DNA of 64,000 nt from Synechococcus sp. PCC 7336. GTDB lineage: Bacteria; Cyanobacteriota; Cyanobacteriia; Thermostichales; PCC-7336. Positions 794 through 59,828 of the stretch are shown here, in pieces. Within the stretch, counting starts at the first letter, position 1. Each line of letters begins with the position of its first letter. The position numbers and the translations under genes are program-made. The stretch covers positions 1,721,268 to 1,785,267 of the forward strand of contig NZ_CM001776.1 in NCBI RefSeq assembly GCF_000332275.1. The letters run 5' to 3'. A model generated the notes under the pieces. The model saw nothing but the letters and a program-made list of their open reading frames with translations, did not search any database and had not been told where the DNA came from.

Positions 794-1253
794 ACCGCTG
801 ATGGTATGGCGGCTCAGCAAGCGGAAATATGCGCCAATGGCTTTTTCTGGAGAGGGCGGGCTCTACGTTGCAGGTCGCTGGACGCCCAAGGGATATCGAG
901 CTGCCTACACCTCCGAGAGTTTAGCGCTGGCCAGCTTGGAAGTTTTCGTCCATGCCGAAACCAACAATATCCCCCTCATCGGCATCCGAGCCTACCTGAA
1001 CGAGCCAGTGATTGAAGTCGTGCCTGTAAAGAAGCTACCGATAGATTGGCAGGAAACCTCGGCTTACCCCCAGCTCCAATCCATCGGCGATCGCTGGTTG
1101 AAGAACCTGACGGCTCCTATTCTGAAGGTTCCCTCGGCGATCGTGCCTATGGAATATAACTACATTCTGAATCCAGCCCACCCCGATTTGCAGATCGTCA
1201 CCGAGCCGCCGATAACTTTCCAATTCGACCGGCGGATGTGGAAGTCCTTTTGA
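786..1253 (+). CDS. RES-domain toxin (predicted NAD+-degrading)
   Basis: Predicted toxin of the RES family, whose characterised members degrade or phosphorolyse NAD+. The three name-giving residues are placed as expected: Arg in the N-terminal MVWRLSK, Glu in LALASLEVFVHAE and Ser in the C-terminal VPSAIVPMEYNYILNP, followed by the usual DLQIV and F.FD.R segments. The open frame runs back to 738, but ATG 786 (or 777) fits family length and gives a short overlap with the antitoxin stop. I chose 786, giving about 155 residues. The pair sits between a SRPBCC gene and cobM on the opposite strand, as an independent module. Confidence 0.88.
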   Translation: MPEPLMVWRLSKRKYAPMAFSGEGGLYVAGRWTPKGYRAAYTSESLALASLEVFVHAETNNIPLIGIRAYLNEPVIEVVPVKKLPIDWQETSAYPQLQSIGDRWLKNLTAPILKVPSAIVPMEYNYILNPAHPDLQIVTEPPITFQFDRRMWKSF

Positions 1254-3568: not shown

Positions 3569-4822
3569 TCATCCCGCTAACACTTCGCGTATAGCAGGAG
3601 ATTCCCCATTCACAGAGTCTTGGCTAGAGTGCAAAACACTCCCCGCCAGAACCTCTCCAGGGGCATTTTCAGCACTGTCCGCCCGACAGCGCTTTTTGAA
3701 CCTATTTCTCAGCACCAGGCCACTGGCGACATCTCTGGGTATTGAGCAACCACAGGTGCATTTATGCCAACGAGTTGCCAGCGTTTTGCGTACCGCTTCA
3801 TCGCAGTCAGGGCACTCCTGAGAAGTCCCCGCTGCCTTTTCTTTTACCACCACCTTGCCGCGCTTAAGGCCAATCCAGGGCAACACCGAGTTAAGGAATT
3901 GCCCGTGACCGGAATCCAGCATGTGCTTACCCAACATCCCGCGACTGAGACCAATCAGGTTTAAGTCTTCAACCACAATCACATCAGCAGCATCACAAAG
4001 CTGGTGAGCCGCCTTGAAGTGAAAGTCCTTGCGGGTATCGGCAATCCGTTCGTGCAGCCTCGCCACCTTAGCTTGAGCCTTCTTCCAATTGGCTGACCCA
4101 GGCTGCTTTCGCTTCAATCTGCGTTGCAGCAATTTAAGCTTGCGCTGCAGATCCACGAAAAACCTGGGCCGCTCTAGCTGAAGGCCGTCCGAAGTTGAGA
4201 GAAAGTATTCCAGCCCAACATCTACGCCCACTACATGACCCACCAATGGTGGTTCTGGGATGACGATATCGGCCCGAAAAGTGAGCATGACGTAATAGCC
4301 TGATGCTCGTTTGACGACCCTGGCTTGCTTGACAGTGAAGCCCTCTGGATAGGGGCGCGAATGGCGAATGGCCATCCAGCCCAGCCCTGGCAGTTTAACT
4401 GCCCCGTCTCTCAACGGAGCTTTGCCCAGTTGAGGAAAAGAGAATGACCGCATTCGCCCCGACTTCTTGAACCGGGGGAACCCAGCCCCTAGCTTTTTGC
4501 GGCGGTCAAATGCTTGGTCTAAACGCCTCAAAACTTGCTGTAACGCCTGGGCATTGACCGAGGCTAGGTCAGCGTTGAGCCGCTTCGCCTCAGTCAACCG
4601 CTGACACTGAACCTTGAAGCCAGGGTATGGAGCATCTGCCGGAATGATGTACTCGCCACACAGAGAGCAGACATTAACCGGACACTTGCGAGAAGCAACC
4701 CAGTCTTTGCGCTCTCTCAGCGCATAATTCCAAACCCGGCGGCACACCTCTAAATCGTGGTCAATTTGTTCGGCCTGCTGCTTAGTCGGTTTTAGCTTGT
4801 ACTCATACGTCAGGGTTATCAT
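3569..4822 (-). CDS. tnpB: TnpB, RNA-guided nuclease of IS605-type element
   Basis: 417 residues. The N-terminal helical domain begins ITLTYEYKLKPTKQQ. The RuvC-like active site appears complete: Asp201 in GVDVGLEYF, Glu285 in VVEDLNL and Asp364 in IPRDVASG. A zinc-ribbon (CPDC at 337-340, then CTC at 355-357) lies between the second and third motifs. The third motif reads RDVAS where many homologues have RD.NA. TnpB proteins are guided by an RNA from the element's right end and promote element retention; they are not needed for transposition. The protein looks intact, unlike the adjacent tnpA. The 3' end of this gene and the 66 bp beyond it are where a guide RNA would be expected. Confidence 0.93.
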   Translation of the reverse strand: MITLTYEYKLKPTKQQAEQIDHDLEVCRRVWNYALRERKDWVASRKCPVNVCSLCGEYIIPADAPYPGFKVQCQRLTEAKRLNADLASVNAQALQQVLRRLDQAFDRRKKLGAGFPRFKKSGRMRSFSFPQLGKAPLRDGAVKLPGLGWMAIRHSRPYPEGFTVKQARVVKRASGYYVMLTFRADIVIPEPPLVGHVVGVDVGLEYFLSTSDGLQLERPRFFVDLQRKLKLLQRRLKRKQPGSANWKKAQAKVARLHERIADTRKDFHFKAAHQLCDAADVIVVEDLNLIGLSRGMLGKHMLDSGHGQFLNSVLPWIGLKRGKVVVKEKAAGTSQECPDCDEAVRKTLATRWHKCTCGCSIPRDVASGLVLRNRFKKRCRADSAENAPGEVLAGSVLHSSQDSVNGESPAIREVLAG

Positions 4823-4850: not shown

Positions 4851-5261
4851 ATGTCGCAACAGCTAAGCACCCTCCACCACTGCTCTTACAGTATTCGCTT
4901 TCACTTAGTCACCTGCACTAAATACCGCCGCAAGTGCATCACTCAGCCCATACTGGATAGGCTCAAGGAGATATTTTCAGAGACCCTTCAGAAGTGGGAG
5001 GGAGAGCTGATTGAGTTCAATGGTGAAGCGGATCGTGTCTACCTGTTAATAGCTGTAAACCCAAAGTGCCAGCCCTCTAAGTTGGTCAATAACCTGAAAA
5101 CCGTCTCTAGTCGCTTGATTCGGAAAGAGTTTGCGGAGCACCTAGGCAAGGTCTACCGCAAGCCCGTTTTCTGGAGTCGTTCGTACTGCATCATCTCCTG
5201 TGGCGGAGCACCCATTTCAGTCCTGAAGCAGTACATCCAACAGCAAGCCGAGATTGACTGA
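4851..5261 (+). CDS. tnpA: TnpA Y1 transposase, HUH motif lost
   Basis: 136-residue member of the IS200-type Y1 single-strand transposases (Y1_Tnp fold). The body is full length, from [15 protein letters not shown] through [19 protein letters not shown] and [14 protein letters not shown] to the catalytic-tyrosine helix VLKQYIQQQ. The metal-binding His-hydrophobic-His motif, expected as D-H-V-H-L-L, instead reads D-R-V-Y-L-L (Arg62 at 5034-5036, Tyr64 at 5040-5042). Both histidines are replaced, each explicable by a single base change (CAY to CGT, CAY to TAC). The product should be unable to hold the catalytic metal, so the element is probably immobile unless helped in trans. Confidence 0.9.
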
Positions 5262-7790
5262 TTGCTCCCTCCGGTCGCCCGCCGCTTCACCACCCCCCAA
5301 ACCTTCGGCTATGGGCGGAGCACTGCGACGGAATTTCGGTAGCAGTTTTTCCAGCAGTTCTACTGCAAGGTTTTTGTACTGTAAGTGGCGCAGGTCTTCG
5401 AGGAATTCTTCAGAGAGGAGGCTGATATTGGGGGTGTCTAGACCGGCTAGGGCGAAGACGTCGGTGACTCCTTCAGCGACGATCGCGTTGTCGAGAATTT
5501 GTTTGAGGGCGGAATGTTTTTCGGCTTCGGTGCGTTTGCGATCGACGGTGGTGGATTTGACGATCGCGACTTTGACGGCGGTGAAGAAGGCGATCTCTTT
5601 GCGTAGGGCAGCGGCGGCTTCGAGGGTGCTACAGAGGGAGAAGGCTTTGTTGACGGCAGTGACAGCATCGAGGAATCGCTTTTTGCCATCGGGTAAACCG
5701 AGGATGTAGTTAGCGGCTGGTATGAGGAGATCGATGGCTTTGGTTTCGAATTCGCTGTAATCGAACGGGTGGAAGAGCGATCGCAGAATTTCGATTTTTT
5801 CCCGCAGGATGGGGAGGGCTTCTCGATCGATGTTGCGGGTGGGTTGACCTTTGCCTTTGGCGTCGGTGTAGGTTTTGAGGGCGTCTTTGAGTTCGTTGGC
5901 GATGCCGATGTAATCGACGACTAGACCGGCTTCTTTGCCTTTGAAGGCGCGGTTGACGCGGGCGATCGCCTGCGTGAGGCTGTGACCGCGCATGGGTTTG
6001 TCGATGTACATGGTATGGCAGCAGGGGGCGTCGAAGCCGGTGAGCCACATGTCGCGGACGATGACGATTTGCAGGGGGTCGGCGGGGTCTTTGAATCGCG
6101 TTTCTAGGCGTTTTTTCTGGGCTTTGGAGTAGATGTGGTCTTGGATATGGGGGCGATCGGAGGGCGCTGCCGGTCATGACGATTCGGATGGCTCCGTCTT
6201 CGGAGTTGTAGCCGATTTCTTGGCCGTCTTTGACGAGTTTGGTTCCGGCCCAATCTGGACGTAAGGCGATCGGTTCGTCGAAGAGATTGACGCAGATGTC
6301 GCGGCTCATGCCGACAATCATGGCTTTGCCTTGCAGGATCTCGGTGCGGGTTTCGAAGTGGTGGACGAGGTCTGCGGCTATGGCTTTGAGGCGGGGTTCG
6401 GCTCCGACGAGTTTGGCTAGTTGTGCCCATTGGCTCTTGGTGTTTTCGCGGGTGGCGAGGTCTTCTTCGTCTTCGACGATATCTTCGACTTCTTGGTTGA
6501 GTGCTTCGATGTCTGTGTTGTTGAGGTCGAGTTTGGCGAGACGGCTTTCGTAGTAAATGGGGACGGTGGCTCCGTGTCTAGGAGTGAGAATTTCTGGACG
6601 GTGGTGAAGATGATGCCGCCGGAGGCTCGGGTGGAGAGTTTTTCGCGCAGTTGTTCGCGGCTGTCTGCTTGTTCGGGGGTGTCTTTGAACAGGTCGGTGG
6701 CTTTGCAGAATTGTTGGTAGAGTTGGCCGTCGAGGTCGTTGCGATCGGTGACGACGATCGGGGTGGGGTTTTTCATGGCGGGCTGTTGCAGGAGTTTTCC
6801 GGCGTAGCAGCACATGGAGATGCTTTTGCCTGCTCCTTGGGTGTGCCAGAAGACTCCGGCTTTGTGGGAGCCGGGTTTGACTTCCCGTCCGTAGGTGGCG
6901 CGGGTTTCTTTGAGTAGACCGGATGGTTCGGTGGGGGCGGAGGCGATGAGGGTGACGCGGATGGCTTCGCGGACGCCGTGGAATTGGTGGTATCCGGCGA
7001 TTTTTTTGACGAGGGTGTCGCCGTCTCGCTCGAACAGGATGAAGTTGCGGATGTAGTCGAGAAAGAGGTTGGGTTGGAAGAAGCCTTTGACTAGAGTTTC
7101 AAGTTGGAATTCGAGGAGTGGGCGATCGTCTTCGTTATCGACAGCCCGCCAGGGTAGGAACCATTCTTCGGTGGCGGTGAGGGAGCCGATGCGGGCGGTG
7201 ATGCCGTCGCTGATGGCGAGGGCTTGGTTGTAGACGAACAGGTCGGAGATTTCGTCTTTGTAGGTTTGCAGTTGGCGGTAAGCTTCCCAGATGTCGGTGT
7301 CTTCTTTAGCGGGGTTTTTGAGTTCGACAACTACGAGAGGTAGACCGTTGACGAATACGACGATGTCGGGGCGACGAGGGATTTTGGTGCCGGTGACGGT
7401 GAATTGATTGACGACGAGGTAGTCGTTGTTTGAGGGGGTGTGGAAGTCGATGAGTAGGGCGCGATCGCCGATGGTTTCGCCTTCTTGGTTGGTGTACTCA
7501 ACGGGGATGCCATTTTTGAGGAGGCGGTGGAAAGCGTGGTTGTTTTGGATGAGGGTGGGGTGTTCGGGGGTGGTGGCGATGTGGAGGGCTTCGGCGATCG
7601 CTGCTGGGGGAAGGGCTGAGTTGATTTGGGTGAGGGCGGTTTGGAGGCGATCGGTGAGGATAACGTCGCGGTAGTCTTTGCGCTCGGGGGTGGGGCCTTC
7701 GGGGGCTAGGTCGGGGCCAGGGATGTAGATCCAGCCGGTGTCTTGGAACCACTGGAGGCAGAGTTGTTCGAGTTGGTCTTCGGTAATCAT
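5217..7790 (-). pseudogene. hsdR: hsdR, type I restriction subunit, broken
   Basis: The remains lie in three reading frames. The N-terminal part (7790 down to about 6580) has the nuclease core (PDIVVFVNGLPLVVVELKNP) and helicase motif I (FWHTQGAGKS), ending at FTTVQKFSLLDT. It continues directly with GATVPIYYESRLAKLDL, so the segment that should hold helicase motifs II and III (roughly 80-90 residues) is deleted and the frame is shifted. A one-base surplus in GGG at 6162-6164 shifts the frame again before [20 protein letters not shown]. The last part (motif VI-like [10 protein letters not shown]) runs into insertion-element sequence after [10 protein letters not shown], near 5340, losing the C-terminal domain. 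Restriction activity should be absent. Confidence 0.9.
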
Positions 7791-8018
7791 GAGATGGCGA
7801 GTTTGTGGCTCATGGAATATCTACAAATGATTTTGTGGGTCGTGAAACGTAAAATGTGAGCAACAAGAGGGCTTTTTTGCGCAAAGGGGAATTTGCGTCT
7901 AAAGAAGGAGATGCTTAGTAAGAAGGGCTTTCTGGAATTTCGGTAGACTGAGGGTGCTTTTCGCCTAAGAAAGAAATATACAAAGATTATCTATGTAAAG
8001 TGGACTTTTTTGGGAAGG

Positions 8019-8291
8019 TTATGGGGCGGCGTTGGTTGTGGGGGTGAGTTGGCCTGAGATGGTGGCATAGAGGACGTCGGGGTCTAGGTCTGCGCCGTTG
8101 TTCCAGTAGATGGTGCCCCATTCGGGGTGGACTTGGACGGTTTGAAAGTAGGTGATGTCTTGGAGGGGGGCGAAGATGCCGGTGAATTGGATCGATTGGC
8201 TGATGTCGATGGTGCCTTCGAGTCCGTCTTCGAAGGTGAGGTGAAGTTGGTAGCCGGTTTTTGGGGTGACTTTGATGATGTCTTTTAGCAT
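8019..8291 (-). CDS. DUF2442-family small protein
   Basis: 90 residues. The pattern (ITKV-like start, LHLTFEDGLEGTIDIS, LQDITYFQTVQVHPEWGTIYWNNGADLDPDVLY) is that of DUF2442 proteins, which are short beta-rich proteins usually encoded next to a DUF4160 gene. The two are often considered a toxin-antitoxin-like pair, but no biochemical role is firmly known to me. It starts 4 bp after the DUF4160 stop and lies between hsdS and the broken hsdR, so it is embedded in the restriction-modification operon. The 228 bp between this gene and hsdR show nothing recognisable. Confidence 0.85.
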   Translation of the reverse strand: MLKDIIKVTPKTGYQLHLTFEDGLEGTIDISQSIQFTGIFAPLQDITYFQTVQVHPEWGTIYWNNGADLDPDVLYATISGQLTPTTNAAP

Positions 8292-8294
8292 GGG

Positions 8295-8555
8295 CTAGTC
8301 CAGGGGGTCGATGTTTTCGAGGGGGGTGTTTTGTCGGGCTAGTTGCCAGTTTTGTTTGAGTTCGGCTTGGTGGATTGTGGCCCATTCGATGACTAAGCCG
8401 AGAACTCTGGGTGATAGTTTCCCCTCTAGTATAGATAGGGTTTCTATGTTAATGAGTGCTTTTTGCTGGTTGTAACGGACGTGGAAGTGACTGGGGGGAT
8501 GGTCGTTGTAGTACATCGTGATGATGATGCCGAGGAAACGACTAATTTCGGGCAT
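8295..8555 (-). CDS. DUF4160-family small protein
   Basis: 86 residues matching DUF4160: MPEISRFLGIIITMYYNDHPPSHFHVRYNQQKALINIETLSILEGKLSPRVL, with the conserved Y..DH.PPHFH-type motif. Its ATG overlaps the hsdS stop (TAATG arrangement), so translation is coupled to hsdS. It is followed 3 bp later by DUF2442. Genes of this pair are widespread in cyanobacteria and often lie in defence or mobile neighbourhoods. Function is unknown; a toxin-antitoxin role is only a suggestion from pairing and size. Confidence 0.87.
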   Translation of the reverse strand: MPEISRFLGIIITMYYNDHPPSHFHVRYNQQKALINIETLSILEGKLSPRVLGLVIEWATIHQAELKQNWQLARQNTPLENIDPLD

Positions 8556-9853
8556 TATTGCACGACCTTTTGGAGTTGCTTTCCTGCACCTGAAAAGTTT
8601 ATCTCTCCAGAGAGTAACTTAGGTAGTAGGGTATAAATTAGCTCTGAAAGTATACGAATCTGATTATCATTTTTGGCAATCAGAATATCAATTGGCACTG
8701 CAATTTTTTCAAAATATTCCAATACTAATGAAGAAGGAGACAGAACAGAAAGCGTTTGCATCTCTTTCTTCGTTACTGAGTTATATATTGTTCCAGATCC
8801 GATTATATCTTCCTCTTGAAAACTATGCTTGAGGAAATAATTCAGGAATGATTGCTTATTATCTTTATGCCTTATGGCCGCTAGCCCTCGACCAATAACC
8901 ATTTTTCGATCTGCAACATTAATACGACCAACTGGGGCTCTTACTGAAAATAAGATGTCTCCTCTCTCTGCAATCCGATTTTCTACAGTACAGAAGACAT
9001 TATGCGTGGGAAAGCGAGAACCAAAATTTTTGACACCTTGATGAAAGGGCAGACCTTGACCTTCAGTGTTATAGAATTCTGACTTTGGTGACTGTCCCAT
9101 CGTCAGTTTTGCAAAGTCTATTAAGCATCCAGAATTCCATCCTAAAGGGATAATTCCAAATTCAGAGCTTGTAAGCTCATCAGGAAATAGTTTTGTGGCT
9201 GAGTTAAGGCTTTCTTGTATCTCGTTTGCCAAGAAATCTAACTTAGTAGTTGCCTTCCCACAAATCGCTGCCATCCCGGCCCGTTCGATGTCTTCTGCCG
9301 ACCCCCCAGCCTCCCGAGCCTTCTGCTTAGCCTTCACCGGCTCAAAATCCACAAACCACGACTTGAAGATTGCTTGGGCGATCGCCTCTAGCGTCTGATT
9401 CATCTGGCGATTGAGTTCGATCTTTTCGTCTAGAGTATTTAAAATATGAGCAATTAGTTTCTGTTCTTCATATCGTGGAATTTTCACCTTTGCCAAGTGA
9501 AGGTGATTACGATTGACACCAGGAACAGCCGCTTTGTCTGAATAGCTAAGATAGTCGATGGTTTCTAATAGATAGCTTATATATCGAGGATCGTTCCCTT
9601 TGAAGTCTTTAACATATAGAGTTGTATTGAGCGGCCAATAATCACCTTCTATCCAATAAACTTGTCCTAGCGTTCCATATCGGCCAGTTACAACTCCTGG
9701 GCCTGAAACTTTAGCCTCATTATGAGTATCTGAAATACCTGAAGATGAAACGATTGGTATTGTTCCATCCTTCCGATTCCTTCGTGGAAGGTCATACCCT
9801 CTTTTGAGCTCGACCACTTCACCGAGCGTTGTTTCCAGCCACTCAGATGACAT
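8555..9853 (-). CDS. hsdS: HsdS, type I RM specificity subunit
   Basis: DNA-recognition subunit of a type I restriction-modification complex, 432 residues. It has two target-recognition domains, each followed by a conserved helical spacer. The first starts at WLETTLGEVVELKRGYDLP and ends in PRYEEQKLIAHILNTLDEKIELNRQMNQTLE. The second begins near SEFGIIPLGWNSGCLIDFAKLTMGQSP and ends in a YTLLPKLLSGEI tail. Each domain reads half of a bipartite site. The frame is open throughout, in contrast to both partners. The half coding the second recognition domain (about 8570-9200) is clearly more AT-rich than its surroundings, typical of shuffled recognition domains. It overlaps the end of hsdM by 11 bp. 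Confidence 0.93.
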   Translation of the reverse strand: MSSEWLETTLGEVVELKRGYDLPRRNRKDGTIPIVSSSGISDTHNEAKVSGPGVVTGRYGTLGQVYWIEGDYWPLNTTLYVKDFKGNDPRYISYLLETIDYLSYSDKAAVPGVNRNHLHLAKVKIPRYEEQKLIAHILNTLDEKIELNRQMNQTLEAIAQAIFKSWFVDFEPVKAKQKAREAGGSAEDIERAGMAAICGKATTKLDFLANEIQESLNSATKLFPDELTSSEFGIIPLGWNSGCLIDFAKLTMGQSPKSEFYNTEGQGLPFHQGVKNFGSRFPTHNVFCTVENRIAERGDILFSVRAPVGRINVADRKMVIGRGLAAIRHKDNKQSFLNYFLKHSFQEEDIIGSGTIYNSVTKKEMQTLSVLSPSSLVLEYFEKIAVPIDILIAKNDNQIRILSELIYTLLPKLLSGEINFSGAGKQLQKVVQ

Positions 9854-11510
9854 AGCCTAAACCTTCTAAATTCTTCTTGATTTCTACTTCTAGCTCTTTA
9901 CTTTTTTCTAGTTGAACACTGAGTGTTTGAGTGAGATATTTCATTTTTTCTGCAAAGGGCTCTCCGTCATCTTCTTCAACAGCAGCCCCAACATACCTCC
10001 CTGGTGTCAACACAAAATCGCTCTCATCAATCTCATCCAACGTTGCAGACTTACAAAATCCTGCCTCGTCCTCATATCCATCCCCCGCTTCCACTTATGA
10101 AACGTCCCCGCTATCTTCTCAATATCCTCATCCGTAAAGTCCCGCAACACCCGGTCCTTCATATATCCACAATTGCGAGCATCGATAAACAATACGTCTC
10201 CAGACCGATCCCTAAGCTTACTTTCTCCGTGCGCTCTCGCCTTCTTATTCTTCGTCAAAAACCAAATACAAGCCGGAATCTGCGTATTCGTAAACAACTG
10301 CCCCGGCAGCGCCACCATACACTCCACCAAATCATTCACTAACAGCGCTCTCCGAATATCCCCCTCCCCCCGAGTATTCGAACTCATCGACCCATTCGCC
10401 AACAACAACGCCAACGACCCATTCGGAGCCAAGTGATACAGCATATGCTGCAACCAAGCAAAATTCGCATTCCTCTCTGGCGGCGTCCCATACCTCCAGC
10501 GCGGATCGTCCTCTAACTTCCCACTCCACCATTCCTTCATATTAAAAGGCGGATTCGCCATCACAAAATCCGCCCGCAAATCCGGATGCTGGTCGTTCGT
10601 AAAACTATTCGCAGGCTCCTGACCAAAATTAAAATCAATCCCCCGAATCGCCATATTCATCGCCGCCAACCGCCAAGTCGTCGGATTCGACTCCTGCCCG
10701 TACACCGAAATATTGCCAATCCGCCCCCCATGCCTCTCAATAAACCGCTCGCTCTGCACGAAGACCCCCCCCCGACCCCATTGCCGGATCGTAAACCCGC
10801 CCCCGATACGGCTCGATCGCCTCCACAATCAAAGACACAATCGACTTCGGCGTAAAATACTGCCCCCCCTTCTTCCCCTCCGCCAGCGCAAACTGCCCCA
10901 AAAAATACTCGTAAACATGCCCGAGAATATCCTTCGCCTTCAAACTCGCGTGCTCGAACGGAATCTCCGATATCAGGTCGATCGACCCAGTCAAACTTTC
11001 CGTCGGCAACTGAAGCTGCGTATACGTCTTATTCAAAACCCCCTTCAGCCGAGGATTATCCCGCTCCACCTCTCCCAGAGCATCATCAATCAGCCTGCCA
11101 ATCGACTTGAACTCGTAAACATATTTCTTGCCATTCTTCACCTCGATCTCGGTCCCTGGCGCAAGCTTGGCATTCTCCCTCAACATCGACCATCGGGCCA
11201 GCGCAGGCACCCAAAACACATTCTTCTCTAGGTAGTAATCCCGCTCCTCCAGTTCCTCCCGAACAATCGCCTCATACTCGTCATCCCCATAATCCGCCGG
11301 ATCGAGAAAGTAATCGTTGTCGCGATCGCGCAACTGCGCCTCAATTTCCCGCTGCCGCTGTGTGAATGCATCCGACACATACTTCAAGAAAATCAACCCC
11401 AACACCGCGTGCTTGTACTGAGCCGCATCCAAATTCGACCTCAGCCGATCTGCCGCTGTCCACAGCCTCTTATCCAGCCCATCCAAAAACTTCTGCTCGG
11501 CATTCGACAT
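9843..11510 (-). pseudogene. hsdM: hsdM, type I modification methylase, two frameshifts
   Basis: N6-adenine methyltransferase subunit, split in three frames. The N-terminal part has the HsdM helical domain and the SAM motif DPAMGSGG. The frame breaks at a run of nine C (10765-10773; nine G on the coding strand), where eight would keep the frame into VFVQSERFIERHGG. The middle part holds the catalytic ANPPFN motif (NPPF of adenine methylases). A second break lies at the five-C run 10082-10086, before DGYEDEAGFCKSATLDEI, and restores the first frame. Both breaks lie in homopolymers, so sequencing error or slippage-type phase variation must be considered. Start ATG 11510 is chosen over the upstream TTG. 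Confidence 0.85.
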
Positions 11511-11782
11511 CAGCAACAATTCCTACCTAACTGCCAGCCTCCCAGCGGGTAGAGCCGCATCCGTTGCATAGTAGCCGCTAAACACTCCCCTGTCCCACCA
11601 CCACAGCGATCGCGAGATATGTTAAGCCAGGCCAATCTCTCCACTCGGGCTGGAAACCGATCGCTGGCTTGAGACTTTCCCACTGCGATCGCCTGCAAAA
11701 TTGTGTACGAGCCTAAAAGGCGAGTGGTTGATATCTTGAATTCAACCGAGTTGCCAATCTACTCAGTATTTGGGGGAAGACC

Positions 11783-12586
11783 ATGCCCGAGCAATTGCAG
11801 GGACAAGTGGCCATCATCACCGGATCGAGCTCTGGAATTGGGGCCGCGATCGCCCAATGCATGGCAGCAGCAGGGGCCAAAGTCGTGGTGAACTATGTCC
11901 GCAGCTCGAAAGGGGCAGAGGAAGTGGTGGGCGAGATTGAAGCGGCGGGGGGAAAGGCGATCGCCGTTCAGTGCGATGTCAGCCAAGAAGACCAGGTCTT
12001 GAATCTATTTGCCCAGACCTACGCAGCGTTTGGGACCGTGGACATCCTCGTCAACAATGCCGGACTGCAGCGGGATGCCAAGTTTGTGGACATGACGCTG
12101 GATGACTGGAACTGGGTGATTAACGTCAATCTCACCGGTCAGTTTTTGTGCTCCCGCGAAGCCGCCAAGGAATTTATCAAGCGGGGGGTGGTGTCGGAGT
12201 GTTCCTGTGCGGCTGGCAAGATTATCTGCATTAGCTCCGTCCACGAGGTCATACCTTGGGGGGGGCACTGCAACTATGCGGCGTCGAAGGGGGGCGTACG
12301 GCTGTTGATGCAGAGTATGGCACAGGAGTTGGCCCCCCATAAAATTCGGGTGAACAGCATTGCACCGGGGGCGATTAAGACCCCCATTAACCGTTCGGCA
12401 TGGGAGACCCCGGAGGCGTTCAATGACCTACTCAGCTTAATTCCCTACAATCGCATTGGGGTGCCGGAAGATATTGGCAAAGCGGCGGTGTGGCTGGCTT
12501 CGGACGACTCCGATTACGTTCACGGGGAAGTTCTGTTTGTGGATGGGGGCATGACCCTCTATCCCGGATTTGCAACGGGAGGCTAA
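11783..12586 (+). CDS. SDR oxidoreductase, glucose 1-dehydrogenase-like
   Basis: Classical short-chain dehydrogenase of 267 residues. The cofactor motif TGSSSGIG lies near residue 15, the NNAG motif at about 90, and the active-site Tyr/Lys pair is in NYAASKGG, preceded by the catalytic Ser in ISSVHE. The C-terminus [18 protein letters not shown] is typical of the glucose 1-dehydrogenase subgroup that oxidises D-glucose to gluconolactone with NAD(P)+. Its stop codon overlaps the start of the following glucosidase gene, so the two are co-expressed, which fits glucose release followed by oxidation. Substrate specificity is inferred from the subgroup and the neighbour. Confidence 0.82.
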
Positions 12587-15445: not shown

Positions 15446-16843
15446 CTAGAGGCTGCCGACGTGCAGGGTCTTTACCCATCTGAGACGCTTGGCTCGCACG
15501 CACATGCGAGCCGTTGTCAGCACCATCACTGGCACCCAGTGGAGCATGTAGATCGTCCCCACTGCGGTTGTGCGGATTAATTTCCAACCGCGCAGGCGAT
15601 GCGATCGCCGCAAACCCTGAAACATGGCGATCGTACTCATGGATATCGCCACCGAACTCAGGGGCCACAGCACCACATTGTGACGGTGGACAATCGCCAT
15701 CGCCAGATCGGGAATCGCAGCCATCGGCAATAAATATTGAATCGTGAAAAAGAGGGCCAGATCGAGGGTTTTGGCCGTCCCGAGATCGTTATTGAAAATT
15801 CCGGGCCAGTAATCGAGATAGCGCTGGTAGCCCCCCTCCGCCCAACGGTTCCGTTGCGGCCATAGGTTCTTCCAACGGGTCACCCCTTCCTCTTGCACCG
15901 CAGGGTCTGCCAAAAAGGCTACATCGCCTCCCGCGAGATGAAAGCGTATGGTCAGGTCTAAGTCGTCGGTGATGGTATCTTCGTTCCAGCCGCCTGCCCG
16001 TTCGAGGGCAGCGCGACTGACGAGCTGGCCGTTACCGCGCAATTCGCCAATGCCTCCAATCGCCCGTCGCTGCTGCTGGAAGTAGCTGTCGAGGGCCATC
16101 TCGGCCATTTGATTGCGGGTCCAAAAATTGCGATCGCTATTGGCGATCGCCTTGCGCAACTGCAGGGCTACCACCGAGGGCTTCTGCTGAAAAATCGCCA
16201 GCGATCGCCGCAGTAAATCTTCGGGCACCAATGCATCTGCATCGAATACCCCAATAATGTCGCCAAAGGTGCGGGGCAATACCTCGTTGAGGGCCGCAGA
16301 CTTGCCGCCCGTGGCTCCAGGCGATCGTTGGTGGACGTGTAACTGGGGCAGGTGCTCTTGCCACAGCGCGAGCTGAGCGGCAGTATCATCCGTGCTGGCA
16401 TCGTCAATGGCCCAAATTTCAAGGCGATCGGCAGGATAGTCTAGGTTGCTGAGGCTCTCCATCAGCGCCGGAATCACGCTCCCTTCATTCTTGGCAGGAA
16501 TTAGGATCGAGACGCGAGGGAAAGGTTGCGAGTCGGAATTCCCTAACGCCACGGTCAAGGGGGAGCCGGGATTTCCATCGAAATTTATCCCTTCACCGCA
16601 GGCCACCTCCGCTCCCAGCACGGGGGGAGGAGAGAAGGGCGAGACGCAGACCAGGCGACCGGCATACATGACCATCCCCGCAGCCAGCCCCGTCACCGCC
16701 CAGCGGGTGACGGGAACAACGTGCAGGACAACCACGGTCAGCCAGACAAAGACCATCACCAGACTGGCTTTGACGCGACGCCGTTGCGGCAGAATTCGAG
16801 GCGGACTATCAGCTTGTTCCAACGTGAAAGGGGCAGGACCCAT
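15446..16843 (-). CDS. Family 2 glycosyltransferase, membrane, cellulose-synthase-like
   Basis: Processive-type GT2, about 465 residues from ATG 16843; an 11-residue longer open frame is less likely. Two N-terminal membrane segments (VFVWLTVVVLHVVPV, WAVTGLAAGMVMYAG) precede the catalytic domain: VSILIPAKNEG, AIDDASTDDT, the metal-binding FDADALVPED, the acceptor motif TITDDLDL and the QRNRW motif (Q..RW) of synthase-like enzymes. Three or four C-terminal membrane spans follow. It probably polymerises or exports a surface polysaccharide; the sugar is not predictable. It is transcribed alone. The 155 bp up to the glucosidase stop contain nothing clear. Confidence 0.85.
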   Translation of the reverse strand: MGPAPFTLEQADSPPRILPQRRRVKASLVMVFVWLTVVVLHVVPVTRWAVTGLAAGMVMYAGRLVCVSPFSPPPVLGAEVACGEGINFDGNPGSPLTVALGNSDSQPFPRVSILIPAKNEGSVIPALMESLSNLDYPADRLEIWAIDDASTDDTAAQLALWQEHLPQLHVHQRSPGATGGKSAALNEVLPRTFGDIIGVFDADALVPEDLLRRSLAIFQQKPSVVALQLRKAIANSDRNFWTRNQMAEMALDSYFQQQRRAIGGIGELRGNGQLVSRAALERAGGWNEDTITDDLDLTIRFHLAGGDVAFLADPAVQEEGVTRWKNLWPQRNRWAEGGYQRYLDYWPGIFNNDLGTAKTLDLALFFTIQYLLPMAAIPDLAMAIVHRHNVVLWPLSSVAISMSTIAMFQGLRRSHRLRGWKLIRTTAVGTIYMLHWVPVMVLTTARMCVRAKRLRWVKTLHVGSL

Positions 16844-50530: not shown

Positions 50531-53197
50531 TTATCTTTGGCCTTTACGAACCATACCCAAGCCATATAGGTATAGCTCGGCAACAGCATAAACTCGGGGT
50601 GGAGGATCTTGTGGTCGTGAGCGCTCTTTCAAAATCCCGGCATCCACCATCTCTTTTATACGTAAAGGCGAGATACTCTCATCAATATTCCAAATTTCAG
50701 ATAGTCTATTTTCGTCGATCGGAGATCGCTCGCCTTGCATCTTATCCAATAGTTCAGCCAGCTCTCTATATTCATTACGTACTTCATCAACCCTTTGTTT
50801 AGACACATAGGGGAAAGCATTAATAAGTGCCCGTGGTCTCAAAATAACTTTTGAACTATACGTACTAGAAAATTCCTGCTCTCTTTTTACAGACTCTTGT
50901 AGAAGTAAAATCAAACTTCTGGGAAAGCAATTGCTATTCCCATCAGCAATTCTTGTGCGTATCCAATTGTATGTATATGCTTTCTTACCTCGCCCCATAC
51001 GCTCCCCCCAAAGTGGATAGAGGCTCTTACGAAGTTGTTCTATCTCGATCATCTCAAGACGCTCAACTGTTACACCAAACTCTCTTTCAGTAGCATCTCG
51101 TAAAATCTGAGAGCTTTGCAAAGCTTGACGTAATACTAGCCTCCAAAGATCGACTTCATCCCAGCGAAGTTGAAGCGATCGAGAAATGTAATGCCCTTTA
51201 TTGATAAAATTAAGTTGGTTCCATATATCTTCGCGTAAGAAAATTTTTGGGATAATGCACTTTAAACTCATCCCATTTTCCAGCCACCAAGCAAGCAAAG
51301 CTTCAAGAGAACGCCGACGCCTCGCATAGTTTTCAGGGCCAAATCCAAAGCCAGCATCAAGTTCGTCATACAAAATCCATACATTACAATTGCGACTGGA
51401 TAATAAACTATCAATAATATATAGCTCGTCGCTAGCTTGTGGTATTGACTGGGGAGACTGGGCACGTTGTACTAGCCAACCAATAATTGATAACTGCGAT
51501 GGATTTTCTTCTGTAGATAACTTAATAAGTTGTTCGTCCAGAGCATTAACAGAGTGAATCTGTGGTTGAGAAGAGCAAAGTTGAAGAAGTGTATAGTTTA
51601 GCCAAAAAACATCCCATTTGTCCTCGCCAACTTGTTCCTCATAACTTGTCAAACTAGTACTGTTGAGAATCGGAGCATTTAAACGAGGTTCTCCATGGCC
51701 TGCAATAAAACCAAAATTAGATAGGCCAAAGTCATCTCTAGCAAGGTTTTTAGCCTTTTCAGATTGTTCTACAAAAAGTCTGAAAAGCAGACTCTTGCCA
51801 GTTCCCTTCGCACCTCTTATAAGCCAAGACTTATTACTCAAAAACTTTGGAAAATCTGCTGTTCTCTGGAAAATATCTGGAATATTTTCCGATTCCATAT
51901 CTTGTGCTCTTGCAGCTTCAAAACTAAGCTGATCTAAAACATGTCTATGCTCTTCTGAAGAAACTTCAGACTCAATAAGAGTATCTGGAAGACTGGCGTC
52001 AATAAAATCTGCCACTGACTCATATCCGTTTAAAATCTCGCGCGGAGTTTTAAGCAAGCTAGATAGACTTATGATGCTTGGGTTATAGAAAACCTTACTA
52101 TAAAGCTCCTCTATGCTTGCTTCATCAGGTAAGCCCCAGTTTTCTACAATCCAGTTTTCAGCCTTGTCTATCCAAGTTTGACTTTGCTCTTCTGAAACTG
52201 TTGGCATGGGTGTTAACAGGAACCTCAGATCGGGTTTACCTCTATAGTTAGATTGTTTTCGGATCGCCTGGACAACATAGCGCAATCCTTCAAAACTTTG
52301 ATCTGTGGGGGAAAAGCAAATGATGCCTGTATCTGCTAGGTCAAATAAAGCAATTGCACTAATATCATTAAAGCCAGGTCTAGCATCAATCAAAATGACA
52401 TCTGGATCTAAAAGTTCATTAACATCACTAATCAACATAGAAACTGGATTACGATCTCCTTGATAAAAGGATTGCCATGTCCTCCTGTCAAGCTCAGCTA
52501 ATCTGTGAATATAGTTTTCATTATACCCTCCGGCTGGAATTAGATATATCTCACCATGACCAGAAAAATTAATTTTGTAGATACAATCCTCAATATTGGG
52601 GATGTTTTCTTCGGGGGTCAAATAACGCTGATACAAATAATCTAATACTCCGTTTTCTTCTGTATTAGAAGGATCTATATCTGGTTGAAATAAAACAGAT
52701 ATTCCAGGTGCCTCAAGGTCAAAGTCAATCGTGACAACACGCCGATTTCTCTTGGCTAGTGAAATAGCTGTCATACCTAGCGCCGTGGAGCGCCCTACCC
52801 CTCCCTTAAAAGAGTAAAAGCTAACAACTTGTGGACGCTTTGGGTCGTCTTTCATGCTTAAGACTGGTTCCTCTATTTCTGGAGCCATCAGGATATCCGA
52901 CCATAGTGGCAGCTGAATATACTCGGGCTCAAGCGACTCTCCCTCCTGAGGAGTTAATAATTCATAATCAGATATCGGATATTGACCGAGATTTAATTCA
53001 ATATCTAATAGTAGGTTGTCAATTCTTTCTTCTCGTTGAATCAATGACTGATTCCTGAATATTTTTGTAATGACTCTAAGCTTAATCCATCCCAGGGAGG
53101 TTCGTTTTACAGACACTTTTGCTGCTGAATCTTGGCTCTGTAGCCTCTGAAGTAGATGGTTCTGAATCCGGGCTGAAATTATATCCGTATCTGCCAT
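50531..53197 (-). CDS. Chimeric ATPase: BolA-like, KGGVGR ParA-like, second P-loop NTPase
   Basis: 888 residues. About residues 25-85 (KLRVITKIFRNQSLIQREER ending ISDYELLTPQE) recall a BolA-like fold. Residues 122-400 are a ParA/MinD-like ATPase, but with the P-loop lysine replaced by arginine (KGGVGRS, 131-137), then VVTIDFDLEAPG and ILIDARPGFNDISA. The third part has a normal Walker A, RGAKGTGKS (461-469), and Walker B WILYDELD (607-613), resembling Sll1717-type P-loop NTPases. It is cytosolic. The gene starts 4 bp after the HEPN-like gene, with AGGAGA in front of its ATG. The base composition is AT-rich and HIP1 is absent. Domain identities are by motif; the role in cell defence is inference. 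Confidence 0.72.
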   Translation of the reverse strand: MADTDIISARIQNHLLQRLQSQDSAAKVSVKRTSLGWIKLRVITKIFRNQSLIQREERIDNLLLDIELNLGQYPISDYELLTPQEGESLEPEYIQLPLWSDILMAPEIEEPVLSMKDDPKRPQVVSFYSFKGGVGRSTALGMTAISLAKRNRRVVTIDFDLEAPGISVLFQPDIDPSNTEENGVLDYLYQRYLTPEENIPNIEDCIYKINFSGHGEIYLIPAGGYNENYIHRLAELDRRTWQSFYQGDRNPVSMLISDVNELLDPDVILIDARPGFNDISAIALFDLADTGIICFSPTDQSFEGLRYVVQAIRKQSNYRGKPDLRFLLTPMPTVSEEQSQTWIDKAENWIVENWGLPDEASIEELYSKVFYNPSIISLSSLLKTPREILNGYESVADFIDASLPDTLIESEVSSEEHRHVLDQLSFEAARAQDMESENIPDIFQRTADFPKFLSNKSWLIRGAKGTGKSLLFRLFVEQSEKAKNLARDDFGLSNFGFIAGHGEPRLNAPILNSTSLTSYEEQVGEDKWDVFWLNYTLLQLCSSQPQIHSVNALDEQLIKLSTEENPSQLSIIGWLVQRAQSPQSIPQASDELYIIDSLLSSRNCNVWILYDELDAGFGFGPENYARRRRSLEALLAWWLENGMSLKCIIPKIFLREDIWNQLNFINKGHYISRSLQLRWDEVDLWRLVLRQALQSSQILRDATEREFGVTVERLEMIEIEQLRKSLYPLWGERMGRGKKAYTYNWIRTRIADGNSNCFPRSLILLLQESVKREQEFSSTYSSKVILRPRALINAFPYVSKQRVDEVRNEYRELAELLDKMQGERSPIDENRLSEIWNIDESISPLRIKEMVDAGILKERSRPQDPPPRVYAVAELYLYGLGMVRKGQR

Positions 53198-53201
53198 TAA
53201 G

Positions 53202-53642
53202 CTACTCTCCTTGTCTATTCAGCAATAGCAAGTGTATCTTTTTTACTGCTGCGATGAACTTTTGACTTTCTAACTTGTTCCCTTGCTTATCAGAATAACG
53301 TAGCTCATCATTGCGCCAGGTGGATGTAATAGTCTTCCAAGCATTCTTGTATTTACCTGTCCGATCTAATTCAATCGTACGCTGTAACGTAGGCGACCAT
53401 TTGAGTAACTTTTGTAAGCTATGGAGGCTTGCACCTTGTAAGCCTGCCTGAAATCCACGAGTTTCTTTAAAGCTATTCTTACGCTCTTCGTAACAGATCA
53501 AAGACTTCAACGAGCATTCGATCGCATACTCTCCAAGGTAGGTAGAACCTATCCACCTCTGACTTTTATGAAGAGCTAGTGCATCTTCAAGCCTGCGACG
53601 AGAAGCCCCTAACTGACTGCGCCGGTTGTAGGTATCCCCCAA
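53202..53642 (-). CDS. HEPN-like protein, first gene of a two-gene module
   Basis: 146 residues. Start TTG 53642, with aagagg nine bases upstream; no in-frame ATG fits. Pattern ASRRRLEDALALHKSQRWIGSTYLGEYAIECSLKSLICYEER, followed later by ASLHSLQKLL, resembles HEPN proteins (A-x-E-x-x-LK-x-L-I then H-x-L-x-x-LL). The usual HEPN RNase signature (R-x4-6-H) is not evident, so an adaptor rather than a nuclease role is possible. The late WRNDELRYSDK segment is also typical of some HEPN subfamilies. It is probably co-transcribed with the 888-residue ATPase. Confidence 0.6.
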   Translation of the reverse strand: MGDTYNRRSQLGASRRRLEDALALHKSQRWIGSTYLGEYAIECSLKSLICYEERKNSFKETRGFQAGLQGASLHSLQKLLKWSPTLQRTIELDRTGKYKNAWKTITSTWRNDELRYSDKQGNKLESQKFIAAVKKIHLLLLNRQGE

Positions 53643-57947: not shown

Positions 57948-59828
57948 CTAGCCCAATTTAATCGTGGCCCCCGACACAGAAACCACCCCCGAGGCCGAGA
58001 CTTGAATACTGGCAGGGGTGAGAGAAATCGTACTGCCCCCCACTTTTAGATCGAGTTTTGTGCCTGCCGAGAGTTCCATTTGGGCTGCAGCTTTGATGGT
58101 GATTTTCCCCCCAGAATCCGCCAACTCGATGGAATTACTACTGGTTTTAATCTGAATTTTCTTGCCAGCATCGTCCAATTTAACGAGATTTCCCCCCGTT
58201 GATTGAATGTCGATGCTTTTAGACTGGTCGTCCATTTTAACGGTATGGCCGCCCTTGGTTTTCAGCTCGATGATTTTGTCAGAATCGTTGAGGTGCAGGA
58301 AGTGGCCATCTGCCGTATCGAGATAAACACCTTTTTTGCTGTCCTTATCGTCATCCACAAATTGCAGCACGTGACCGACGCGAGTTTTAAACGTCCGCAA
58401 CCGAACTTTGTTATTGGCCACCGAATTGTCCACACTCTCGGAGGGGGCATCTTTACCATTCCAAACTCCTCCCAAGACAAACGGACGATGAATATCGCCG
58501 TGCTCGAACCCCAATAACACCTCGTCATCCACCTCCGGCAGACAATCGAAGCCGCGATTGGCCCCCGCCCCGATCGCCACCACCCGCGCCCAATGACTTT
58601 CGTGCTCCTCAGTCAGCGTCGGATATTTCACCCGCACCCGACCCCACTTTTTGGGGTCTACATTATTGGTCACTTTGCCAATTAGCAGAGTCTGTCCCGG
58701 TTGCAGGCGCTGGGGGGGAGAGAGCGCGGAGACGAGATCGCGGTTGCGCAGGCCGCGCACGCTAAATTCGGTGCTGTAAATGCGATCGCGATAGAGATGA
58801 AGGGTTTCGGTCACGTAATAGCTGCCGCTATACTTGCCAATCTTGGCGATCTTGACCACCTGACCGGGGCGAATCTCGGGGTTGCCCTCGGCGATCGCAT
58901 CTGCTTGAATAAATTCCCCTGCCAGTTCGTCCAGCAGGGCTTGGGCGATCGTATCGGCTTCTTTACTGCTAAACACGGGTCGATCCACCACCACCATGCT
59001 CGGTTGGCTGGGCTTGCCATTAAATGCCGAGCTGACGGCACTCCCCTGGCCAAACTCATTGCTTGTTTTCACCGATGCCGAATTCTTGGTGGAGACGATC
59101 GCCTCTTTGCGCTCGAAATCCCAGCCCCGCACCTCCACCTGCTGCACCTGTTCGGCACTCGACACCCGTACTCGAAAATTGTTCAGTTCGACCAACCATT
59201 CCAATTCAATCTGGCCATCCTGTTTGGGTTTGCGAAAGTTTAGCTTATTATCCTGCACGAATAGTTCGAAGCCATTCAGGGCAGCCCGCTCCCGCAAAAA
59301 CTCCATGTGGGTTTGGTTTTCTTGAAAGACGTATTCGTGTACGGTGCTGGTGCTATCGACGGTCCCCAGTGAAATACCGACATCTGCCGCCAGTTTTTTG
59401 ACCAGGTCGCTGTCGGTGATGTCTTGGAAGGACTGGTTGTGGCGACCGCGATGGAGGCGGTGGGAGGTATCGTAGCCGCGCACGATAATGGGGGCTTGGG
59501 CGCTACTGGTGAGATGGGTTTCAATCGCAGTCACCTCCCCTTCAAACACGGTGCCTGTCTCGGCTTCAGAAAAGTCCTCGTCTTCTGTGGTGCTGGAGAC
59601 GAAGCCAATTTTGATGGTGCTGCCAATCTCGAATTTAGAGGCATGCTCCCAAATGGCATCTTCTGAGCCAGTGCCTGGGGCGGCATCGTTGCGGATTGCC
59701 AGTGTAAACATGCTGGGCAGGTGCAAACTCTCTTCCACCGAGAGCTGCAGGATGTCTTCCATCAGGTTCTCGGGGGCGGGAGAACCGTCAATGTATAGCT
59801 GCGGTTCGGCAATATAGGTGGTGGGCAT
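57948..59828 (-). CDS. VgrG-like spike protein of a contractile injection system
   Basis: 626 residues. The N-terminal part (1-380) matches gp27-like phage-late-control/VgrG folds: IRNDAAPG, VFEGEVTAIETHLTSSAQAPIIVRGYDTSHRLHRGRHNQSFQDITDSDLVKKLAADVGI, HMEFLRERAALNGFELFVQDN. Residues 395-490 form a gp5-type OB domain (GRVRVKYPTLTEEHESHWARVV, PEVDDEVLLGFEHGDIHRPFVLGGVWNGKDAP). A repeat-rich beta-helix tail of LKTKGGHTVKMDDQSKSIDI type forms the spike. Such proteins belong to phage-tail-like or extracellular injection systems. No sheath, tube or baseplate gene is in this window, so it is an orphan locally. Confidence 0.88.
   Translation of the reverse strand: MPTTYIAEPQLYIDGSPAPENLMEDILQLSVEESLHLPSMFTLAIRNDAAPGTGSEDAIWEHASKFEIGSTIKIGFVSSTTEDEDFSEAETGTVFEGEVTAIETHLTSSAQAPIIVRGYDTSHRLHRGRHNQSFQDITDSDLVKKLAADVGISLGTVDSTSTVHEYVFQENQTHMEFLRERAALNGFELFVQDNKLNFRKPKQDGQIELEWLVELNNFRVRVSSAEQVQQVEVRGWDFERKEAIVSTKNSASVKTSNEFGQGSAVSSAFNGKPSQPSMVVVDRPVFSSKEADTIAQALLDELAGEFIQADAIAEGNPEIRPGQVVKIAKIGKYSGSYYVTETLHLYRDRIYSTEFSVRGLRNRDLVSALSPPQRLQPGQTLLIGKVTNNVDPKKWGRVRVKYPTLTEEHESHWARVVAIGAGANRGFDCLPEVDDEVLLGFEHGDIHRPFVLGGVWNGKDAPSESVDNSVANNKVRLRTFKTRVGHVLQFVDDDKDSKKGVYLDTADGHFLHLNDSDKIIELKTKGGHTVKMDDQSKSIDIQSTGGNLVKLDDAGKKIQIKTSSNSIELADSGGKITIKAAAQMELSAGTKLDLKVGGSTISLTPASIQVSASGVVSVSGATIKLG

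Follow-up and report, generated by a model that had tools for sequence, protein, structure and literature searches.

A HEPN gene paired with a fused BolA-like, two-ATPase gene in Synechococcus sp. PCC 7336, a variant of the candidate defence system PDC-M28

Introduction

The candidate systems named PDC were derived from a guilt-by-embedding analysis, and most of them await validation (PMC12988326). One of these candidates in PADLOC, PDC-M28, is composed of three components: a HEPN protein (A), a KGGVGR protein (B), and an Sll1717-like AAA protein (C). The literature searched yielded neither an experimental test of a PDC-M28 member nor a paper describing KGGVGR, PDC-M28, Sll1717 or BolA-like defence proteins. 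Related arrangements have been discussed. Dyads of a HEPN protein of the MAE_18760 family and a ParA/Soj-like ATPase were proposed as toxin–antitoxin systems (Anantharaman et al. 2013, PMC3710099), and the same work proposed for the HEPN-T and AbiV families an alternative active site composed of a conserved arginine, an upstream histidine, and an Ex3[KR] motif. ORC/Cdc6-like ATPases anchor BREX and related systems (PMC12839542).

Here we describe a two-gene locus in a 64,000-nucleotide stretch of Synechococcus sp. PCC 7336 DNA (the window), which the first-pass annotation had presented as an undescribed conflict system consisting of a HEPN-like gene and a KGGVGR-ATPase gene.

Results

Organization of the locus and its relation to PDC-M28

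Both open reading frames of the claimed gene pair were present at the reported lengths and spacing, and the motifs KGGVGRS (residues 131–137), GAKGTGKS, and ILYDELD were all found in the translation of the larger gene. The coordinates of the genes and domains are collected in Table 1.

Table 1. Features of the HEPN and two-ATPase locus, in window coordinates or protein residues
Feature	Position	Strand	Remarks
HEPN-T-like small protein (PDC-M28A-like)	53202..53642	-	146 aa, TTG start; near-invariant E42, K46, H74, R115, Y116
Intergenic gap, HEPN gene to 888-aa gene	53198..53201	-	4 bp
Fused BolA-like + KGGVGR ParA-like + Sll1717/ORC-CDC6-like AAA protein (PDC-M28B+C-like), predicted C-terminal winged helix	50531..53197	-	888 aa, ATG start
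BolA-like (class II KH-like) N-terminal domain of 888-aa protein	52931..53197	-	residues ~1-89; S76 at BolA Fe-S His position
ParA/Soj/MinD-like SIMIBI ATPase domain of 888-aa protein	51984..52834	-	residues ~122-405; P-loop Lys replaced by invariant Arg (R136)
Sll1717/ORC-CDC6-like AAA ATPase	50531..51910	-	residues ~430-888; Walker A K468, Walker B D611/D614 intact
Winged-helix-like C-terminus of 888-aa protein	residues ~829-872	-	predicted

The pair could not be retained as undescribed, because PADLOC-DB already holds its three components as candidate PDC-M28. The M28A model matched the window HEPN protein with 25.6 bits (E=3e-6) and all 18 aligned HEPN relatives (best E=2e-20), and the M28B and M28C models matched the 888-residue protein with 135.6 and 85.5 bits, respectively. 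Judged by these component-model matches, the window module is a variant of PDC-M28. The B and C parts were fused in the window protein and in 59 of 59 aligned homologues; at L054, L055, L062, and L063, the three components are split but follow the same gene order, A-B-C. The features that are new here are the B–C fusion and the BolA-like N-terminus, in place of which the examined split M28B proteins have an unrelated one.

Both arrangements were seen together in genome G122 (L054, 716–9347), where a fused module and a split A-B-C PDC-M28 share one orientation and are separated by ~2 kb. On a Calothrix plasmid (L062, 7153–12265), the split PDC-M28 genes are followed by two more uncharacterised genes on the same strand, which may be part of the split operon.

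BolA-like N-terminal domain

The BolA-like N-terminus proposed in the first-pass annotation was substantiated by profile and fold comparisons. When the N-terminus was compared with a cyanobacterial BolA profile by hhalign, the score was 58.9, with a probability of 96.9% and E=1.4e-10, far above the best of 60 column-shuffled BolA alignments (13.8) and the reversed alignment (9.6). Three subgroups of the N-terminus, each compared separately, all matched BolA (85–94%). The domain folded alone was predicted to have a helix-strand-strand-helix-strand order. With the predicted domain as the query, BolA structures formed the first 13 matches in Foldseek (best E=3.3e-4) and the first 11 rows in VIA, with Z values from 9.9 to 8.3; the best VIA match had an r.m.s.d. 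of 2.6 over 78 residues.

The conserved histidine of BolA proteins, located in the IHAL motif, is an Fe-S ligand. This residue was missing from the fused proteins, being Ser76 in the window protein and a residue other than histidine in its relatives. Given this replacement, Fe-S ligation of the kind found in BolA–glutaredoxin pairs is unlikely for this domain.

BolA kinship was also sought for the split M28B N-terminus and was not found; when three such N-termini were compared with the fused N-termini and with BolA, the hhalign probability was ~0.2%. The literature searched yielded no previous description of a defence protein containing BolA.

The two ATPase parts

The large protein was also claimed to contain a KGGVGR ParA-like domain and a second, intact P-loop NTPase, and both were recovered by family models above their curated cut-offs. 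Residues 122–312 matched the NCBIfam model AAA_KGGVGR (NF047398) with 181 bits (cut-off 90), and residues 432–860 matched ATPase_Sll1717 (NF047389) with 119.5 bits (cut-off 75). The corresponding Pfam matches were AAA_31 and ORC-CDC6-like, the latter with E=8e-9. Residues Arg136, Lys468, Asp611, and Asp614 were invariant across 59 homologues. The deviant Walker A sequence of the ParA partition ATPases, KGGxGK[ST], is not intact here and reads KGGVGR, with the arginine kept in all 59.

The AlphaFold2 model of the large protein, built from the alignment of 59 homologues, had a mean pLDDT of 86. The ParA part superposed on Soj and MinD with Z values up to 24.4 and an r.m.s.d. of 2.6 over 239 residues. 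The C-terminus was predicted to contain two helices (residues 829–836 and 843–852) followed by two strands (residues 856–858 and 869–872), and this predicted secondary structure looks like a winged helix.

A C-terminal NCBIfam match to DS-41, which was validated in PMC13092281, was weak (21 bits, cut-off 370), and kinship with DS-41 is not claimed.

The small HEPN protein

The HEPN-like identity of the small protein was supported through its relatives. The Pfam HEPN model (PF05168) was sub-threshold for the window protein alone (E=0.019), but matched 10 of 18 aligned relatives at E<0.01, the best with 4e-8. The Pfam family MAE_18760 was reported for none of the 18 HEPN proteins, a missing match that does not exclude kinship. 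No convincing match was obtained when PDB sequences were searched with the HEPN profile.

In the alignment of 92 HEPN proteins, Glu42 was present in all sequences, and Lys46, His74, Arg115, and Tyr116 were each present in 91. The classical Rx4-6H motif was not found, as no histidine followed Arg115 at a distance of 5–7 residues, and RNase activity is therefore not assured. Residues Glu42, Lys46, His74, and Arg115 nevertheless provide the elements of the alternative site proposed for HEPN-T and AbiV (PMC3710099), through which the small protein may still act as an RNase.

The chief rival reading starts from the same alignment. In it, the HEPN protein would not be catalytic but would serve as an adaptor or as a receptor for nucleic acid, and the effector would be the ATPase protein, assembling on invading DNA via its ORC-like and winged-helix half and blocking replication or transcription. 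The lack of Rx4-6H at Arg115 is consistent with this role, as are the binding roles proposed for HEPN proteins without conserved polar residues (PMC3710099) and an intact second ATPase of the type that anchors BREX. The near-invariance of Glu42, Lys46, His74, and the Arg115–Tyr116 pair, however, exceeds the needs of a pure scaffold, and we consider the adaptor role unlikely, at roughly one chance in five. A catalytic HEPN protein is the reading preferred here.

Gene linkage and spread

About 85,000 species genomes were scanned with a profile; the best 80 places were retained and gave 79 loci. Together, the scan loci and loci from related genomes supplied 83 fused genes with upstream sequence. 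Of these, 80 are immediately preceded by a HEPN gene of the same orientation, and one of the three exceptions (L096) retains a HEPN remnant. The linkage of the pair is thus conserved, and it extends over at least five phyla (Cyanobacteriota, Chloroflexota, Pseudomonadota, Thermodesulfobacteriota, and Actinomycetota). The HEPN gene and the large gene overlapped by 4 bp in 30 of the 80 pairs, a frequency in the relatives suggesting that the two genes may be translationally coupled. The distribution was patchy; close HEPN relatives (E<1e-40) were found in only 9 of 194 genomes of the window's class. A further, distant copy (G000:C1:624627-627257), ~30% identical, is present in the genome of the window and is accompanied by a HEPN gene of its own.

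Most of the fetched copies were on contigs without a plasmid label, and some were on plasmids. The plasmid-borne copies and the ParA/Soj fold would agree with a ParA-type function in DNA partition or maintenance. Against such a function stand the invariant arginine at the position of the P-loop lysine, the location of most copies, and the partner gene, since no ParB-like partner was noted while a HEPN gene is nearly universal. A partition role is accordingly unlikely in the extreme.

The pair could instead be a toxin–antitoxin system, in which the HEPN protein is the toxin, the ParA-like protein is the antitoxin, and the genes are retained for addiction and not for phage defence. The dyads of HEPN (MAE_18760) and ParA/Soj proteins were proposed as such systems (PMC3710099), and the gene order and tight overlap resemble those of such pairs. 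The 888-residue partner with two ATPase parts, however, far exceeds the usual size of an antitoxin. In addition, the large gene was interrupted by transposase-like genes in two copies (L082, 8801–9989; L085, 9779–11161), in which an intact or partial HEPN open reading frame persists upstream of the broken gene; this is difficult to reconcile with a strongly toxic HEPN protein. A pure toxin–antitoxin role is less likely, and somewhat more doubtful than the adaptor role.

Base composition and mobility

The block was described as AT-rich and devoid of the GCGATCGC site, and this was borne out. Its GC content was 40.8%, compared with 54.3% in the rest of the window, and the GCGATCGC site, with 113 occurrences in the window, was absent from it. 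None of 1094 other windows of equal length was as AT-rich or lacked GCGATCGC. In cyanobacterial hosts, the modules had ~40% GC whether their flanks had 49% or 61%.

When genome G020 was compared with its congener G039, a 4.4-kb stretch containing the module and a transposase-like gene, as read from the sequence, corresponded to 97 bp in G039, which by this comparison is an empty site. The low GC content in GC-rich hosts and the empty site in a related genome both support the acquired origin that had been claimed. A copy on a Nostoc plasmid, 64% identical, sits between hsdR and a recombinase gene. The surroundings of the window copy gave no convincing sign of a promoter, a terminator, or insertion repeats. 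No relative was found on viral contigs in the scan, which therefore gave no evidence of phage carriage. By these observations, the module is a horizontally moving cassette.

A dispersed repeat of ~120 bp was also observed, with dozens of copies in both G020 and G039 (e.g. L043, ~15500–15620).

Defence context

Among the proteins encoded nearest to the modules, a sample of 139 matched 82 PADLOC families at E<1e-15, whereas 143 control proteins, taken from randomly chosen regions in related genomes, matched 14; these counts were made over redundant HMM families and not over genes, and the enrichment is an indication only. Models of the DISARM, Zorya, Dpd, and BREX types and of type II methylases were among those matched. 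One of the split copies has a type III restriction gene nearby. This context, including the hsdR and type III neighbours, argues well for the conflict or defence role claimed for the module.

The window copy itself is flanked by ordinary or core genes, and the nearest defence genes, belonging to the decayed-looking type I restriction–modification locus described below, are ~40 kb away. It was placed earlier between ppsA and two-component genes. A ppsA-like gene does precede the block in window order, and the Hpt/response-regulator side was read from the sequence only.

Other genes of the window were also noted. Remains of a type I restriction–modification locus at 5217–12340 comprise hsdR-like sequence in two open reading frames (6417–7790 and 5217–6050), a specificity subunit (8555–9853), and a partial hsdM-like frame (10007–10828); the locus looks decayed, and a TnpB-like gene (3569–4822) lies near it. 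At 57948–59828, a 626-residue protein reads by eye like a phage late-control D/VgrG-type spike, and no other tail or injection-system gene was evident by eye beside it.

Discussion

The likeliest reading, to which we give about an even chance, is a module directed against phages or plasmids, whose two-ATPase protein would sense invasion and license RNA cleavage by the HEPN protein. Sensing and switching would both fall to the 888-residue protein. The ORC/Cdc6-like AAA part of this protein, with its winged helix, would bind DNA or a replication intermediate and hydrolyse ATP. The KGGVGR ParA-like part would bind ATP and, because arginine replaces the P-loop lysine, would hydrolyse it poorly, acting as a dimerising switch that responds to nucleotide occupancy. 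The BolA/KH-like N-terminus would dock the partner or a nucleic acid. Once the cell is infected, the co-translated HEPN protein would be released or activated by the complex; the HEPN protein would then cut RNA through its alternative HEPN-T site (His74, Arg115, Glu42, and Lys46) and thereby arrest the infected cell.

A more specific proposal is put forward tentatively, with perhaps one chance in four. The modules would form a distinct and widespread immune complex, in which a BolA-like docking or nucleic-acid module without the Fe-S histidine connects two parts, a ParA-like switch impaired in hydrolysis and a DNA sensor of the ORC-like AAA type, with a HEPN RNase that uses a non-classical His74/Arg115 site. 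So far only a catalogue entry with three matching models, PDC-M28 becomes a two-gene machine made testable by its near-obligate pairing in at least five phyla, its swapped N-terminus of the BolA fold, and its named residues. The module bears on the suggestion made in 2013 that a HEPN protein lacking Rx4-6H may cut RNA via another histidine, and it would extend BolA domains beyond iron-sulphur and stress biology.

When the module was compared with the known systems, PDC-M28 was the closest. The module matches each of its three component models and follows the order A, B, C, whereas B and C form one polypeptide in the window and a BolA-like domain replaces the N-terminus of split M28B. The ParA/Soj–HEPN dyad (PMC3710099) likewise pairs a HEPN gene with the gene of a ParA/Soj-like ATPase; however, its HEPN protein belongs to MAE_18760, whereas that of the module resembles HEPN-T (PF05168), and the ATPase of the module is fused to an ORC-like AAA part and a BolA-like domain. 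The HEPN-T (AF0298-like) and AbiV families share with the small protein the retained arginine, the histidine missing from Rx4-6H, another histidine upstream, and Ex3K, but the module HEPN gene is nearly always beside that of a two-ATPase protein and has no nucleotidyltransferase partner. The BrxC-type ORC/Cdc6 AAA proteins of BREX (PMC12839542) likewise occur in a defence context, and in them too the AAA part is followed by a winged helix, although they belong to another protein family with other partners, and the module needs no BREX genes nearby. BolA proteins share their sequence profile and fold with the N-terminus of the 888-residue protein, whereas the window domain is without the Fe-S ligand histidine at the aligned position and is fused to ATPases.
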